Shown here in pieces: positions 23,791 to 48,068 of a stretch of DNA of 64,000 nt; the first letter of the stretch is position 1; each line of letters opens with the position of its first letter. Source of the stretch: an uncultured Clostridia bacterium (lineage in GTDB: Bacteria > Bacillota > Clostridia > Christensenellales > UBA1242); assembly GCA_944372335.1 (NCBI GenBank), contig CALVYQ010000004.1:1-64000 (forward strand), read 5' to 3'. The notes under the pieces are model-generated. The model was not told the origin of the DNA. It made no database searches and saw nothing but the letters and a program-made list of their open reading frames with translations. Made by a program: the position numbers and the translations under genes.

Positions 23791-26334
23791 ATGAAAAGAT
23801 TTTTGATTTGTCTATTTTCTTTTCTATTTATAGGTTGTTCCATCGCTGGTGGAGCGGTTCTCCTTTCAAATTCATCTTATAGCGATGAATACCGGGGAGG
23901 GGATTCGTCAAACTCAGAAAATGATGTAACCAAAAACGCTCCGACAAACGATGACCTCTGGACGGACGAGGGAAATTACGCCACTTCATTTGCAGGCGGT
24001 GACGGACAAACAGAGGCAACGGCATACCAAATTGCCACGCCAGAGCAACTTGCATATTTATCATATTTAATAAACACATCTTCAACAAATTCTACATACA
24101 AATCACTTTACTATGTTCAAACTGCGGACATAGATTTATCTGCACACTATTGGGATGCGATTGGTTATTCGTTCTCCTATTATTTTTCAGGACACTATGA
24201 TGGTGGCGGTTATACAATTTCTGGGCTATATACACAATCAGGTACTAGTTCTACTTATAGTGATCAAGGTTTGTTCGGAGGTGTTCGTGGATCATCGTCT
24301 TCAAATCTTGCTGTAATTCAAAATATTGTCATTAGTTATAATTCTGTCGTTCAAGGATATAGCAATGTCGGCGGAGTTGTTGGGTATGCTTACTATTCCA
24401 CAATCACCAACTGCTATAACACAGGTACTGTGAGTGGGACTGACGCTGTCGGCGGAGTTGTTGGGATTGCTCAGAGATCCACCATCACCAACTGCTATAA
24501 CACAGGCTCTGTAAAGGGGAATGAGAATGTCGGCGGAGTTGTTGGGGATGCTCGTTATTTTTCTTCCGCTATCACCAACTGCTATAACACTGGAACTGTG
24601 ACTGGGAGTGGTAATGCTGTCGGCGGAGTTGCTGGATCTGTATTTAGTACTTATCTTTACACCACTGCCAACTGCTATAACACCGGCTCTGTAACTGGAA
24701 GTAAACGTGTCGGTGGCGTTGTTGGGGATTCTAGTTGTTCTGGGTCTTCTACCATCGCTAACTGCTATAACACCGGTGCTGTTGATGGAGATTCTCATAT
24801 AGGGGGAGTTGTGGGGTATGTTTATAATTCCACAACCGCCAACTGCTATTACGGCGGGAACTGCACGCTTTCGTATGGAATTGGGAATTCTTCTTCTAAC
24901 ACTGGGGCGTCAAAGGATGAAAATTTAATTGCTAATGCCAAAAGTTTAAGTTGGTATCAAGATAGCTCTAAGTGGAGGAGCAGGTATCCATGGGATTTTG
25001 TTGAGGTCTGGTCGCTTGTGCCTAGTGCAAATGACGGTTACCCTATCTTGCAAGGCTTCTCAGTTAATATATCATATAATTCCAACTTTGGCGAAAATGA
25101 GGTAATAACCGAGCAAGTGCCTAGCGGGCAAGAGATTGTGATTGCGGGGTATGACCTATTCACACGAGTGGGCTATGAGATAGCTCATTGGAACACCAAG
25201 CCAGACGGCACTGGTTTAAATTTCTACGCAGGTGACACATATTCAGAGGGTGCTGGGCTAACTCTCTATGCCATTTGGGAGGCTGGTATTTACTCTATTA
25301 CATTAGACGCAAACGGTGGCAGTGATGGAACGGAAACAATTTGGTTAAAATATAATGATGGTTATTATAACAATAGTTCTGCAACAGGCAGTGCAATAAC
25401 AAGTTTAACAAGCTTGCCAACACGGGCGGGGTATAGTTTCAATGGCTATTATACAAATTCAACAACCGGCAATTTGATTATAGCTTCGGACGGCACAATC
25501 AGGGCAAACAACACGTATTTTACAGCAAACACAACTCTCTATGCTCAGTGGACAGCCAACAATCCAGCGTATTATGACGAAGAGGGCGGATATTGGTATA
25601 TAGAAAATGGGCGTGCTCCACAAAGTAGAGTGGAAGATGAAACATTAAAGACATATTTAGAAGAGAATTGGGATAACTTAAATGCCGGGACTACTTATCA
25701 CTTTGGCGGTTGGGAAAATATAACAACAAAAGTATATAATGGAGAAGAATATATGGAACTTTATGGCAACTATTATCTTGTCGAGCCTATAAGGTGGCGA
25801 ATAATCTCAAACGGAAATCAAGAAGTTGGCTATGGTGAAGTTTCAGAAGATGGCATAATGGCGGTTATGGACAAAATTATATATTTAGGCAGATATGCAG
25901 GAATTGAAATTTCTGCTGGTGAGGGGTATAGCGATATGCCAATATCATACCTTTTAAACTCCGAACATCCTCTCATTAGTGACAAATTTTTAGTTGAGTG
26001 GACGGAAAGTTTACCAACTTTTGGAACAACATCAATTCATGGTGAAACTATAGAATATACGAGTAAGGCCTTTGTTTCATCTATAGAAGATATTGAAGCG
26101 GTGACGGGAGATAGAAAGGTTAAATTTTCTGATTATGTAGAAGATCTCATGGTAATTCATAAAGGTGTAATTCCACTTTGTTACACACGAGATTTAGGTT
26201 CAAACTATAACAATATTCTATGTTTAAATGAAAACGGTGACATAACACAGAGAAAGCCAAATCTTACAGTAAATCAACTTGGCGTGCAGTTCACAATTAA
26301 AATATCAGAGTATGCTTGTGTATCTTCATTATAA
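23791..26334 (+). CDS. GLUG/InlB-repeat surface protein with shared C-terminal module
   Basis: The 847-residue product has an N-terminal signal or anchor helix (FLFIGCSIAGGAVLLS). The lipobox is poor; the paralogue at 12342 has a clear one. Next comes a segment SEATAYQIATPEQL-like typical of GLUG proteins, six tandem GLUG repeats (24361-24850; cores VGGVVG and NCYNTG), two InlB-type repeats (GYEIAHWNTKPDG, GYSFNGYYTNSTTG), and the C-terminal 230-residue module shared with 12342 and 59282. It contains EPIRWRI, YTRDLGSNYNNILC and the Tyr-Ala-Cys-Val motif near the end. AAGGAG precedes the ATG. Probably an exported adhesin; role inferred. Confidence 0.85.
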   Translation: MKRFLICLFSFLFIGCSIAGGAVLLSNSSYSDEYRGGDSSNSENDVTKNAPTNDDLWTDEGNYATSFAGGDGQTEATAYQIATPEQLAYLSYLINTSSTNSTYKSLYYVQTADIDLSAHYWDAIGYSFSYYFSGHYDGGGYTISGLYTQSGTSSTYSDQGLFGGVRGSSSSNLAVIQNIVISYNSVVQGYSNVGGVVGYAYYSTITNCYNTGTVSGTDAVGGVVGIAQRSTITNCYNTGSVKGNENVGGVVGDARYFSSAITNCYNTGTVTGSGNAVGGVAGSVFSTYLYTTANCYNTGSVTGSKRVGGVVGDSSCSGSSTIANCYNTGAVDGDSHIGGVVGYVYNSTTANCYYGGNCTLSYGIGNSSSNTGASKDENLIANAKSLSWYQDSSKWRSRYPWDFVEVWSLVPSANDGYPILQGFSVNISYNSNFGENEVITEQVPSGQEIVIAGYDLFTRVGYEIAHWNTKPDGTGLNFYAGDTYSEGAGLTLYAIWEAGIYSITLDANGGSDGTETIWLKYNDGYYNNSSATGSAITSLTSLPTRAGYSFNGYYTNSTTGNLIIASDGTIRANNTYFTANTTLYAQWTANNPAYYDEEGGYWYIENGRAPQSRVEDETLKTYLEENWDNLNAGTTYHFGGWENITTKVYNGEEYMELYGNYYLVEPIRWRIISNGNQEVGYGEVSEDGIMAVMDKIIYLGRYAGIEISAGEGYSDMPISYLLNSEHPLISDKFLVEWTESLPTFGTTSIHGETIEYTSKAFVSSIEDIEAVTGDRKVKFSDYVEDLMVIHKGVIPLCYTRDLGSNYNNILCLNENGDITQRKPNLTVNQLGVQFTIKISEYACVSSL
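24361..24850 (+). repeat. Six tandem GLUG-encoding DNA repeats
   Basis: The phrase GTCGGCGGAGTTGTTGGG or close variants begins near 24367, 24448, 24529, 24619 and 24709, with a diverged copy near 24799. The spacings are 81, 81, 90, 90 and 90 bases, so each unit keeps the frame at 27 or 30 residues. The high DNA identity suggests recent expansion and a length-variable array. Confidence 0.85.
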
Positions 26335-43236: not shown

Positions 43237-44700
43237 ATGAAGAAGTTTGCGTTATTATTAGTTTTAATTTTAACAATCCCGTTTTTTGTCGTGGGTTGCA
43301 CGGATAAAGGCGAAGCTAATTACACATCATACACTCTTTTTTGCGAATATGATGAGGTTAATCACACGCTAGATGGAAAAGAAAGAGTGGAAATATTTAA
43401 TAAATATGATAATACTTTAGGCGAGCTTAAATTTTTTCTTTACCCAAATTCCTTTAGTGAGGGTAAGGAGGCGGTTAGCTCAAGCTATTTTAATCGAGCC
43501 TATCCAACAGGTGAGATAAGTTATGGCAACATCGGGATAGAAAGCGTAACAAGTGAGAATGAGGCTCTTGTATATCAAGTCAACGAAGAAGGCAATATAT
43601 TGACGGTCTCTTTACAAGAAGAGATTTATCCAAACGAAAGGATAAGCGTGGATATTGAGTTCACGGTCAAGCTTGCCAACATAAATCATAGGCTTGGTTA
43701 CGGCGAAAATACCGTCAACTTTGGCAATTTCTATCCCGTTCTATGTGTCTATGAAAATGGCTTTGTGGAAAATAATTTTGCCACGAATGGCGACCCTTTT
43801 TATAGTGAAACGGCAAATTATGATGTAACATTATCTTTCAATAAAAATTTTGTGCTTGCAAGTAGTGGTGATGTGTTAAGCGAAAGTGAAAATGGTGATA
43901 ACATTGTGGTGAATATTGAGGCAAAAAAGGTGCGTGATTTTGCTTTTACTCTTTCCACAAAATTCCAAAAAATTTCAAATACTGTTGGTGATATAACAGT
44001 AAATTATTATTACTATGATGAAGATAACTTTGAAGAAAATTTAATGATAGCGTGCGATGCTATGACAACTTTTCAAGAGCTTTTTGGAGAATATCCATAT
44101 AAGACAATAAATGTGGCAAAAACTAATTTCTGTTTTGGTGGAATGGAGTATCCAAATTTGGTGTTTATCTCAGATGAGGTGGCGGACGCAGAAACATATA
44201 AATATGTTATCGTGCATGAACTTGCTCATCAGTGGTGGTATTCTTTAGTTGGTAATAATGAATTTAGTGAAGCGTGGCTTGATGAAAGTTTGACAGAATA
44301 TAGCACGGCACTCTTTTTTGAAAAAAATGAACAATATGGAATAGATTATGATGAATTGATAGAGGGTGCATTAAGAAGCTATCGACTTTTTATTGGCACA
44401 TATAAAGATATTTTAGGTGATGTCGATGAGAGCATGAACAGAAGTTTAAGTGAGTTTAATACAGAACCAGAATATGTCAACTGTGTCTATACAAAAGGGG
44501 TATTGATGTTTGACAGCATAAGAAAGACGCTGGGCGATAACAAGTTTTTTAAGTGCCTTGAAAATTATTTTGATGAATATAAATATAAAACGGTAACATC
44601 AAACGATATTATTGAAAGTTTTTCTAAGTCTTCAAAAACAAATCTTAAAGGCTTCTTTAACGCATGGCTTAACGGCGAGGTAGTGCTGGATAATGAGTAG
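43237..44700 (+). CDS. M1-family (gluzincin) metallopeptidase lipoprotein
   Basis: Zinc aminopeptidase-like protein anchored outside the cell. The ATG at 43237 begins a lipoprotein signal MKKFALLLVLILTIPFFVVGC; an upstream in-frame TTG at 43210 is unlikely. Zinc ligands HELAH at 327-331 followed by WLDESLTEY carry the third ligand Glu, and MEYPNLVF near 300-308 replaces the family GAMEN motif. At 487 residues it is a short M1 protein lacking the large C-terminal domain. It has no clear Shine-Dalgarno sequence; TAAAAT boxes lie at 43214 and 43226. Divergent from the dnaD-like gene. Confidence 0.88.
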   Translation: MKKFALLLVLILTIPFFVVGCTDKGEANYTSYTLFCEYDEVNHTLDGKERVEIFNKYDNTLGELKFFLYPNSFSEGKEAVSSSYFNRAYPTGEISYGNIGIESVTSENEALVYQVNEEGNILTVSLQEEIYPNERISVDIEFTVKLANINHRLGYGENTVNFGNFYPVLCVYENGFVENNFATNGDPFYSETANYDVTLSFNKNFVLASSGDVLSESENGDNIVVNIEAKKVRDFAFTLSTKFQKISNTVGDITVNYYYYDEDNFEENLMIACDAMTTFQELFGEYPYKTINVAKTNFCFGGMEYPNLVFISDEVADAETYKYVIVHELAHQWWYSLVGNNEFSEAWLDESLTEYSTALFFEKNEQYGIDYDELIEGALRSYRLFIGTYKDILGDVDESMNRSLSEFNTEPEYVNCVYTKGVLMFDSIRKTLGDNKFFKCLENYFDEYKYKTVTSNDIIESFSKSSKTNLKGFFNAWLNGEVVLDNE

Positions 44701-44855
44701 AAAACACTTGAGTATAAATATTAATAATCAAAATTTAAATGATTATAAGAATAAAAATAAAGAAAAAGCACAAAAAATTATTTAACCACTCATTTATAGA
44801 TAAGCAAGAGTTTGAGTGAGAATTTTAATTTATTTAAAAAAAATATTCAATTTAA

Positions 44856-44883
44856 TTGACAACGGGGGGGGGAATGCTACAAT
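44856..44883 (+). promoter_or_regulatory. Promoter with poly-G spacer for the SGNH hydrolase gene
   Basis: TTGACA (44856-44861), 16-base spacer, TACAAT (44878-44883). Nine of the 16 spacer bases are an uninterrupted G run (44864-44872), striking in such AT-rich DNA. Gain of one G would give the optimal 17-base spacing. Confidence 0.8.
44864..44872 (+). repeat. Nine-base poly-G tract
   Basis: Homopolymer of nine G between the -35 and -10 boxes. No other G or C run of this length was seen in the window. Confidence 0.95.
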
Positions 44884-44927
44884 TAGAAAAATAAACAAGC
44901 GAAGTTTATTTTTAGAAGGAGATTGAT

Positions 44928-47456
44928 ATGGAAGAAAAAGTTAAAAACAATAAAGTTTTGATAACAATTTTATCGGTTTTGATGTCGGTGTTTTTCGTTA
45001 GTACAATTGTATTTGTCGCTTTGTTCGCCACTTCAAAAGACAAGGAACTGACGCTTAGTTTTGAAGTAAATGCAAACGAGTGCTGTGTTGATGTGGTAGG
45101 ACAGATATATCAGCAACAAAATGCCGAACAAACAACTGCACCGGTTAAGAGTGTTAACGTTAAAAGTTATATGGATAACTATGGAGTAATTACCTTTGAT
45201 GAAGATTTCATAGACACTTTGTCAGTTGATGATTTGAGGGTAGATAGTGAAAATCAATACATAAAAATAATGTTTGAAATAGAAAATCATTCCATTTTTG
45301 CCATTGATGCAAGTGTGGCGTATGGTGAAAATTATGCAAGTGAAGAGAGCATTGCGACTGGTGAATCTCATGTGCTTGAGATAGGATTTGATATTAATGA
45401 TGTTGATTTAGATGAAAGCATTGTTGTTTCAATTGAAAAGAGCGGAGATAAATCAACTTACACCGAATTTGTTGGCTATGATGGCTATATTTGGAGAAGT
45501 TATCCTAATGGCGAAACAGAGAAAACAAACACTATTGTTCAATCTAATATGACAACAGATTTAATTTCCGAAAACACCTTAGGATTAACAAATTCAGGAG
45601 TTTATTATCAGCAAGATATTATAGATTTTTCCAATAGCCAAGTTGCTTTGATGACTCATTATTTTAATAATATAAATAAAACTGGCTATAGTGGTGCACT
45701 TATTGGCAGTCTCTCAATCTATGCAGTAAAAGCAGGCGAGTTGACTGTTGGCACGGCTTCGGTTGAAGAAATTGTTGCCTCAAAAACAAACGGCGAAAGT
45801 GTTGCTTTAACTAACTCCATTTCCTTTACTTTGCAAAAAGGGACAAACTTACTTACATTAAATGATTATTTCGTTGAAGAAAATTCAACCTTGGTTCTAG
45901 GTGAAACTGGTGATAGTGCGATAACCACCTTCTTTAAGGAAGTTCCAACAAACGATGAGCAAGGTGTTTTCTGCTTGCTTGATGGCAGTTCTTCAAATGA
46001 AGTTGTAAGCACAACCGGTGCTTTTGATGACAAGCTTGCAATAAAGGTAAATTTAACAGGTATTTATGACCAAATTTATTCCGGTGATGTTGTTTCAATC
46101 AATGATGGTATTGAAACTGCACTTCTTGACCAAGACGGTTGGAGAAGTGAATCTACTAGTACAAATATGATAAATTCAACAAGTTATGATTTAAACAAAT
46201 ATTCCAGCTTAAAAGTTTCATATATAAGGCTTTTTGTTAGAAGTGTATCCTCACTAACAGAAGATCAAACTTTCACAGTTAATGTTGTTAAAAATTATTA
46301 TCCTTATGAAATTGTGAAAAGTTATCAATTTGTTTTACCTGCTGATGAAATAAATATTGCAGAGTCAACAACTGGTGGGGCTGATAGTGCTTATGATGAA
46401 AACACTGGAAGATATATTTTAGGACGTTGGAGAACGCTATATTGCAATGAAGAAGTTGTGACAAAGGGTGATGAAACTCTGTCTTTCTATGCGGGAGCAG
46501 ATGTTGACTCAATTCGAATTTCAACCTCTAATGGTGATTCAAGAGTTTCTGAGTGGCAGGGTATAACATCATTGAATATGTCTTACACATGGGGAAGAAT
46601 GTGTATATTTGTTGATGTTTATGGACAAAGACTTGAAAATGTGCTTCAATCATACAGTGCAAGAATTGAGGAATTGAGTAATCAAAACAGAGTGCTGGAA
46701 AGTTTGGAAGGTAAGAAGATTTCGATAATTGGTGACAGCATTTCAACTTGGGAGGGTATTTCAAATAATCCTGATGCAAATGTGACAACAGAAAATAATC
46801 CGCTTTATTACACAAACGACCAACCAAGAGAGTTGGAATCGTATGAAGATACATGGTGGATGCAAGCAATCAATGGAACCGGCATGGAACTTTTGGTTAA
46901 CAACTCATGGTCTGGTGCAAAAGTAAATAAGAAAGGTATTGAGATGTCAACTGAACTTGATAATAACGAAGGAGTGAGTCCAGATATTGTTGCTGTATAT
47001 ATGGGAGTTAACGATTTTCATTCCTATGGATTTTGTGGCGATAATGTGTACGATGATGAATTTTTTAAACGGGTGGAATCTTCCGATTTTATACCAACAA
47101 GTTTTGATGAAGCGTATGCTTTGATGATTTATCAAATTAAAGCAAAATATAATGCTGATATCTATCTTTTTAACATTCCATATAATGGAAAGATTGAAGG
47201 GCTTTCAGGAACACATGGGCTTGATAATATGAATAATTTGCTAGCAAAGTATAACGAAGCAATATCAGCAATTGCTGAACACTATAACTGCACATTAGTT
47301 GATTTAAATAGCACTGAACTGTCAACCGACTATGACACGCTTACAGGAGATGGACTACATCCTAATATGGCTGGTATGGATATAATCACAAATCTATTTG
47401 TTGAAGCGATTGAGAACAATTATCTGACAAATGAACAAACAGCTGAGGTGGCTTAA
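44928..47456 (+). CDS. Membrane-anchored SGNH/GDSL hydrolase with large extracellular region
   Basis: The 842-residue product has an N-terminal membrane anchor at about 8-33, about 550 residues of unrecognised extracellular, probably beta-rich sequence, then an SGNH hydrolase domain from about 595. Visible SGNH blocks are GDSIS (block I Ser), NNSWSG (block II), YMGVNDF (block III) and DGLHPN (block V Asp-His). Such enzymes deacylate glycans, peptidoglycan or esters; the substrate is unknown. AGAAGGAG precedes the ATG. The poly-G promoter suggests on/off or graded variation of its expression. Confidence 0.87.
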   Translation: MEEKVKNNKVLITILSVLMSVFFVSTIVFVALFATSKDKELTLSFEVNANECCVDVVGQIYQQQNAEQTTAPVKSVNVKSYMDNYGVITFDEDFIDTLSVDDLRVDSENQYIKIMFEIENHSIFAIDASVAYGENYASEESIATGESHVLEIGFDINDVDLDESIVVSIEKSGDKSTYTEFVGYDGYIWRSYPNGETEKTNTIVQSNMTTDLISENTLGLTNSGVYYQQDIIDFSNSQVALMTHYFNNINKTGYSGALIGSLSIYAVKAGELTVGTASVEEIVASKTNGESVALTNSISFTLQKGTNLLTLNDYFVEENSTLVLGETGDSAITTFFKEVPTNDEQGVFCLLDGSSSNEVVSTTGAFDDKLAIKVNLTGIYDQIYSGDVVSINDGIETALLDQDGWRSESTSTNMINSTSYDLNKYSSLKVSYIRLFVRSVSSLTEDQTFTVNVVKNYYPYEIVKSYQFVLPADEINIAESTTGGADSAYDENTGRYILGRWRTLYCNEEVVTKGDETLSFYAGADVDSIRISTSNGDSRVSEWQGITSLNMSYTWGRMCIFVDVYGQRLENVLQSYSARIEELSNQNRVLESLEGKKISIIGDSISTWEGISNNPDANVTTENNPLYYTNDQPRELESYEDTWWMQAINGTGMELLVNNSWSGAKVNKKGIEMSTELDNNEGVSPDIVAVYMGVNDFHSYGFCGDNVYDDEFFKRVESSDFIPTSFDEAYALMIYQIKAKYNADIYLFNIPYNGKIEGLSGTHGLDNMNNLLAKYNEAISAIAEHYNCTLVDLNSTELSTDYDTLTGDGLHPNMAGMDIITNLFVEAIENNYLTNEQTAEVA

Positions 47457-47486
47457 AACTCAATAAAAACTCATAACTATCTATCA

Positions 47487-47517
47487 AAAAAACTCTATCA
47501 AATTGATAGAGTTTTTA
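47487..47517 (+). terminator. Terminator of the SGNH hydrolase gene
   Basis: AACTCTATC (47491-47499) pairs with GATAGAGTT (47505-47513), flanked by A and T runs. Confidence 0.88.
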
Positions 47518-47550
47518 TATTATTTTAAATTAAATTCAATTTATCTATAT

Positions 47551-47574
47551 AAAAAAAAGAACAAGGCTGTTCTT
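47551..47574 (-). terminator. Terminator for the minus-strand gene at 47685
   Basis: On the minus strand AAGAACA (47574-47568) pairs with TGTTCTT (47563-47557) and is followed by a run of T. It lies about 110 bases beyond the stop codon. Confidence 0.75.
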
Positions 47575-47684
47575 GTTTATGTTAATGAAAAGTATGTTGC
47601 TTAATATTTATTGGTGTTTGCATATTACTGCCAAAAACTTGTGATATGAATATTTTATAAAAAATGTAAAAGTAGAGCATAAAG

Positions 47685-48068
47685 TTAAATTTTATGTAAT
47701 TCAAACGAAAATTTATTTTTTAAATCTCTATCAAAGTATTCATAATCGGTTATAACGGCATCACACCCTTTCAATGCCCATTCAATTTTTCCAATAAAGT
47801 TATTTTCGTCAATTGGCAAGAAGGCATCAAAACCCGTATAATCTTCAGGTGCAAGTTTATGATTAAAAGCATAATAGCATCTAGTGCTTCCTTTTTCTAA
47901 TTTAATAAGCCTACTTGCAGAGATAGAAGCTAGGCTGTTATTAAGAAAATAAAAGAACCTATAATTTTTTTCAAACAAGGTGTTTAATATTTGCTTAAGT
48001 TTACGCTTTTGAGATATTTCATCGTTGAGTAAAACCAAGCAACTTCTATTTTTCACTAATCTTTTCAT
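47685..48068 (-). CDS. Small cytosolic protein of unknown function
   Basis: The 127-residue basic protein has an alternating helix/strand pattern suggesting a small Rossmann-like fold (RSCLVLLNDE near the start, GCDAVITDYEYFDRDL near the end). I cannot place it in a family. An AAAAGGA site precedes the ATG, and a TTTACA/TATAAT promoter lies upstream. Divergent from the XRE regulator gene at 48218, which might control it. Confidence 0.7.
   Translation of the reverse strand: MKRLVKNRSCLVLLNDEISQKRKLKQILNTLFEKNYRFFYFLNNSLASISASRLIKLEKGSTRCYYAFNHKLAPEDYTGFDAFLPIDENNFIGKIEWALKGCDAVITDYEYFDRDLKNKFSFELHKI

Follow-up and report, generated by a model that had tools for sequence, protein, structure and literature searches.

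The window analyzed here, a stretch of 64,000 nucleotides (GCA_944372335.1, contig CALVYQ010000004.1, positions 1 to 64,000, forward strand) of an uncultured Clostridia bacterium, contains a gene for a putative SGNH/GDSL hydrolase whose predicted promoter carries a run of nine G between the -35 and -10 boxes. Below, Gn and Cn denote runs of n bases, and handles of three digits after the G (such as G032) denote genomes. The following features were located at the hydrolase locus:

44856-44861, + strand: predicted -35 box TTGACA (sequence; consensus scan)
44862-44877, + strand: spacer of 16 bases, AC-G9-AATGC (sequence)
44864-44872, + strand: G9 homopolymer, the candidate slip site (sequence; run count; chance model)
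44875-44883, + strand: predicted TG-extended -10 element, TGC followed by TACAAT at 44878-44883 (sequence; consensus scan)
44916-44921, + strand: predicted ribosome-binding site AAGGAG (sequence)
44928-47456, + strand: open reading frame of 842 residues with the ATG at 44928 and a C-terminal SGNH/GDSL hydrolase domain (translation; Pfam profiles)
47488-47516, + strand: terminator-like hairpin 3' of the hydrolase gene (hairpin scan)

Both boxes, the 16-base spacer with its nine G and the 842-residue frame had been described in a first-pass annotation of the window, and all of them were found in the sequence as claimed; a homopolymer of at least eight bases between the boxes is present by sequence, run count and consensus scan. 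The TG preceding the -10 hexamer TACAAT, which makes it an extended -10, had gone unmentioned. Within the region 44600-47800 the G9-tract promoter was the top match of the consensus scan (11 of 12 bases). However, 19 promoter-like sites occurred in this region compared to 15.5 expected in shuffled sequences, and thus the consensus match by itself is weak evidence. Terminator-like hairpins numbered three in the same region, with 0.9 expected in shuffles. The hairpin just after the promoter (44888-44960) folded no better than shuffled sequences, 37 of 200 of which did at least equally well. The gene product matched three hydrolase profiles above cut-off (PF13472, E 2.3e-14; PF00657, 1.3e-9; PF16255, 5.3e-9), and its translation contains IIGDSIS, MGVNDF and DGLHP, in which the catalytic motifs of SGNH/GDSL enzymes (GDS, GxND and DxxH) are present, in agreement with the identity originally assigned. 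As read from the sequence, the protein has a hydrophobic N-terminal segment, and a location at the cell surface is predicted.

The earlier statement that the window holds no other such tract was also borne out: the G9 is the sole G- or C-run of at least seven bases on the + strand, where C-runs count as G-runs of the other strand, and the next longest is one G6. Under a first-order chance model fitted to the window, 0.016 G-runs of nine or longer are expected in the window and 0.30 in the genome (1.2 Mb, both strands), in which eight were found. G-runs of at least seven numbered 12 (one G7, three G8, seven G9 and one G10), with about 9.9 expected at this threshold and 1.7 at eight or longer, so that the observed lengths run opposite to the expected decay. 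By manual reading of their positions, 11 of the 12 runs sit in promoter spacers or at gene 5' ends. The tracts, by contig and position, were assigned as follows, the first five lines by manual reading:

C4:44864 (hydrolase) and C1:139413: poly-G in a promoter spacer, spacer 16
C1:69272 and C11:19401: poly-C on the gene strand in a promoter spacer, spacers 15 and 17, respectively
C1:6624, C1:71798 and C5:72959: 5' coding tracts in one lipoprotein-like family
C1:227646: 5' coding tract in a PfkB-family kinase
C11:2083, C11:38439 and C7:48480: tracts at or adjoining the ribosome-binding position
C2:153295-153302, - strand: unassigned; a G8 closely preceding the start codon ATG of a very short frame (L043), with no longer open reading frame after it and no Rfam match

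The hydrolase locus would belong to a group of such contingency loci in the genome.

Judged from its AlaRS, the window would come from a Christensenellales-like group: among the 80 records kept, those of uncultured Clostridia matched best (up to 89%), and Christensenella or Christensenellaceae entries ranked lower. The layout recurred in related genomes. We used samples of 101 genomes for the genus (including the own genome), 248 for the order and 291 for the class, and searched for the pattern TTGACN{0,12}G8N{0,8}TANNAT with the reversed pattern as control. At least one G9 run occurred in 85 of the 101 genus genomes, and the poly-G spacer pattern in 54, with up to 22 matches in a single genome (G094); the reversed control gave one match in the whole genus sample (G047). 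The corresponding poly-C form was found in 53 of the 101 genomes, again with one match of the reversed control (G056). Order-wide, 61 of 248 genomes had the pattern (53 of 231 outside the own family), and class-wide 11 of 291 (seven of 277 outside the order), with no match of the reversed control in either sample. These frequencies indicate that the layout is concentrated in the order and strongest in the genus.

The spacer lengths of these promoters had a pronounced peak. Among 137 listed poly-G promoters from 23 genomes, the spacer was 16 bases in 91, 15 in 17, 17 in 18, 18 in eight, 19 in two and 20 in one; 13 of the 150 listed rows had been omitted, namely 11 of G055 and one of G043, in which the match overran a nearer -10 or had a different -35 pattern, and one duplicate of G007. 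In 149 listed poly-C promoters, after omission of one duplicate of G034, 16 bases was likewise the most frequent length (61, compared to 27 at 15 and 24 at 17). Tract-free promoters were drawn from the window, the genus stretches and named relatives. Here, TTGAC[AT]...TATAAT pairs occurred 21 times at a spacer of 17 and five times at 16, and pairs with TANNAT 52 and 20 times, respectively. Fisher's test of 16 against 17 in tract and tract-free promoters gave 8.6e-10 for poly-G and 2.5e-06 for poly-C, values that ignore kinship, although many of the listed rows belong to promoter families within a single genome and are not independent, and that compare samples with slightly different box patterns. 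Thus, the listed tract promoters mostly lie one base below the local optimum, and so does the hydrolase promoter with its spacer of 16. This fits a low state correctable by one added base, 17 being the presumed high state.

Tract lengths also differed between related promoters. A lipoprotein-like gene has relatives in 26 of the 101 genus genomes, several of them distant, and the spacers in front of these were counted by hand. Its four closest relatives share the same spacer ends and leader, and their promoters had C9 with a spacer of 16 (G041), C10 with 17 (G037), C8 followed by T with 16 (G030) and the interrupted run CCAC7 with 17 (G094). In relatives further removed, the promoter of this gene had either C9 or C10 with a spacer of 17 (G034, G006) or G8 with spacers of 16, 17 or 18 (G086, G087, G046 and a second copy in G030). 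C-runs and G-runs thus occupy the same promoter place, indicating that poly-C and poly-G exchange for each other. The rest were either truncated or too far removed for a good comparison; two of the stretches (L338, L339) had C-runs further upstream. Variation was found within single genomes as well, where promoters with the same flanks had six G8 and three G9 (G008), two G9 and one G10 (G014), or two G9 and one G11 (G043). Hence, tract length differs among orthologous as well as same-flank promoters.

Similar tracts were present at the starts of coding regions. The own genome encodes five lipoprotein-like paralogs, three with pure runs and two with GGGGAGGGG, at C1:15268 and in the window:

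23791-26334, + strand: lipoprotein-like paralog with the interrupted run GGGGAGGGG (paralog comparison)

In the two latter genes a synonymous A lies within the run, by which the frame is kept and which would make it less slippery than a pure G9. The pure-run paralogs comprised one with G9 open for 1291 residues (C5), one with G10 out of frame after 44 residues (C1:71798) and one with G9 in a gene that is soon broken (C1:6624). P0015, a protein from another assembly, is in frame through the tract; its match with the C1:71798 gene reached 98.9% in residues 36-214 and 93% in the remainder. The own copy is out of frame at the tract and has a second frameshift, with no homopolymer, near L040:8338; the tract-bearing genes of L039 (G000:C1:6521 onward) and L040 are damaged beyond the tract, perhaps through decay or misassembly. 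The protein collection contained three short products of the lipoprotein-like family that are out of frame. Genome G042 has five paralogs with the same context, two of which (both G10) are open to the end of the stretch, and in the other three (G9, G9 and G12) the frame ends after 43 or 44 residues. Among 43 tracts listed from G041, G086, G042 and G037 with no selection for promoters, five were clear promoter spacers with an open reading frame starting within 40 bases, and most others fell within an open frame or at its beginning, according to an automatic, uncurated call. Nine tract-associated proteins comprised five glycosyltransferases, an ABC transporter, a PfkB-family kinase, a Listeria-Bacteroides repeat protein and one with no match.

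Taken together, the G9 in the hydrolase promoter is probably a slipped-strand phase-variation tract in which spacer length sets transcription, a reading drawn from sequence comparison. A copying slip at the G9 would change the spacing between -35 and -10 and thereby transcription: one G gained would extend the spacer to 17 and increase transcription, and a G lost would decrease it. The first-pass annotation had proposed a phase-variable promoter, which, as a candidate, is well supported by the recurrence in the lineage, the length differences between orthologs and paralogs and the spacer peak at 16 as opposed to 17; we infer the switching itself, and with it slips at this tract, expression set by the spacer, a low state at 16 and a high one at 17, and the surface location of the protein. 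For the genus and parts of its order, the chances appear evenly balanced that there is a transcriptional phasome in which groups of surface genes, numbering as many as about twenty in a genome, have promoters placed one base below 17 by slippery poly-G or poly-C. In such a phasome single slips would flip genes one by one, giving each cell a different surface, and as relatives swap poly-C for poly-G, selection would keep the slippery run and not its base.

Several observations weigh against phase variation at this promoter. The length of the tract at 44864-44872 is known from one assembly and one promoter copy, and the TG-extended -10 may render the effect of spacer length graded instead of on/off. 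The hydrolase (P0001) has no close relative in the 100 other genus genomes, with partial matches in six, and therefore this promoter is not comparable between species. Of the 13 relatives of the lipoprotein-like gene that aligned better, three (G075, G058, G055) lack a tract. In addition, the own genome has both MutL and MutS, so slip rates may be modest; by the same result, loss of mismatch repair was ruled out as a cause in this genome. MutL profiles matched in 239 of the 248 order genomes, 224 of them over the cut-off. The longest spacer tracts among the order matches listed, a run of 18 G in G119 and of 16 G in G298, belong to two of the nine genomes with no MutL match. Long tracts also occur alongside MutL (15 G in G275, 14 G in G189), and thus the link between lack of MutL and the longest tracts is a hint.

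The presence of mismatch repair would equally suit an alternative in which the G/C run serves as an invariant part of the spacer, recognized by a regulator or acting through DNA shape, that marks surface genes and involves no switching. This explanation gains from two genomes with repeated promoters of largely one tract length: all 18 listed matches of G032 are exactly G8, 16 of them with a spacer of 16, and the genome has no G9, which also counts against phase variation; in G075, 14 of 15 listed matches are G8. However, a fixed motif would not be expected to exchange poly-C for poly-G at the promoters of one gene, to differ in length between close orthologs and between same-flank promoters of one genome, or to recur in coding starts with lengths that give in-frame and out-of-frame products. 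We therefore regard it as unlikely. A chance or mutational homopolymer whose length is without consequence for the regulation of this promoter is very improbable; an extended -10 promoter can work despite a poor spacer, but the excess of runs of G9 or longer over expectation and the specific position between the boxes, with a single match of the reversed control in 101 genomes, argue against it. Finally, an error of sequencing or assembly in the run or its length can almost be discarded, since, even though G-runs are difficult to read and a study on Bifidobacterium breve describes an artefact of repeated G in Illumina reads and reference tract lengths differing from the main true ones (PMC9187656), the runs are located within contigs and flanked by conserved boxes, both as poly-G and as poly-C, and this holds for the assemblies of many species. 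The exact tract length may still be off by one.

With regard to the gene itself, a scan of the genome contigs yielded no close relatives of the hydrolase gene, and a protein search, in which the 7995 best candidates were scored, identified two distant relatives besides the hydrolase itself, which was counted on 10 contigs. Judged by AlaRS, L122 is the nearest named relative; it shares the gene order of a DnaB-like protein, an M1 peptidase, the open reading frame at 47685, a class I synthetase and AlaRS, and between the M1 peptidase and the 47685 frame it lacks the hydrolase gene together with its promoter. The hydrolase gene is accessory, in keeping with variable surface genes.

Among the promoters with tracts in other genomes, those of G032, G043, G014, G008, G055 and G029 that have an open reading frame within 150 bases are often followed by a hydrophobic protein start (for example L204, L212, L231, L234, L237). 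A good share of the listed sites in these six genomes has no open reading frame of at least 50 residues within that distance, and a surface regulon is thus proposed from part of the sites. Among the matches listed, many poly-C promoters have a TG one base ahead of the -10, and many poly-G tracts directly adjoin the -10 (uncounted). In G032 (AGGGTATCC...GGATACCCT; L204, L206, L209, L212) and in G008 (AGGGTATC...GATACCCT; L237, L238), a near-identical hairpin comes after the repeated promoters, where the transcript would be expected to begin, and several contigs with a repeated promoter stop just past it, as if the downstream sequence were repeated. In the own genome, the G9 at C11:2083-2091 (L047, minus strand) directly follows a TATAAT and lies five bases before the ATG of a thioredoxin-like open reading frame. 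It may act as a ribosome-binding site, in which case slips would alter translation and not promoter spacing. Six tract-bearing stretches had no Rfam match at gathering scores. Weak promoters called automatically at L046, at the first tract of L278 and at L280 were rejected, as they had two to four mismatches and no open reading frame after them.

The best-known cases of homopolymer-based phase variation come from Neisseria, Campylobacter and Haemophilus. In the Neisseria fetA and porA promoters, according to one report, a poly-C or poly-G run lies between -35 and -10, and fetA expression follows its length (PMC5320596). The hydrolase homopolymer is likewise positioned between the boxes. Unlike the Neisseria cases, the present tracts occur in Clostridia, reach the 22 matches of G094 in one genome and exchange poly-G and poly-C between relatives, and their length dependence is presumed. 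For pilus genes of Bifidobacterium breve, expression is reported to depend on the length of G-runs of 9 to 12, for which mixed lengths were measured; the same study also names promoter-spacer G-tracts, without data (PMC9187656). That system resembles ours in its G-runs and as it concerns a gut Gram-positive; it differs in that the switch studied lies in the coding frame, whereas here the tract lies in a promoter spacer and lengths come from assemblies. In Campylobacter, a survey reports many G-runs of at least seven in each genome, most frequently of length 9 (53%) and 10 (26%) (PMC6321876). Many runs of at least seven and a peak at G9 were found here, too. Sugar-transfer genes, which are typical of Campylobacter poly-G loci, are also among the tract-linked proteins of the present lineage. 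In contrast to Campylobacter, promoter spacers are a frequent site here, and within these spacers poly-C is about as common as poly-G; mismatch repair, which to our knowledge Campylobacter lacks, is present. The mechanism is therefore already known (fetA/porA type), and Bifidobacterium breve is a gut Gram-positive precedent. In the open-licence literature we found no report on phase variation by homopolymers for Christensenellales-like bacteria or for any other uncultured Clostridia; as far as that literature shows, the genus- and order-wide use, the many promoter tracts per genome, the spacer peak at 16 and the exchange of G for C are new.

If the interpretation as phase-variation tracts is true, these uncultured, animal-associated Clostridia would switch their surface stochastically by means of a large system that is invisible to ordinary annotation and acts in good part at promoters. 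The offset between spacers of 16 and 17 is a direct testable prediction, and surface variation in these bacteria would be measurable by counting tract lengths in existing metagenome reads.
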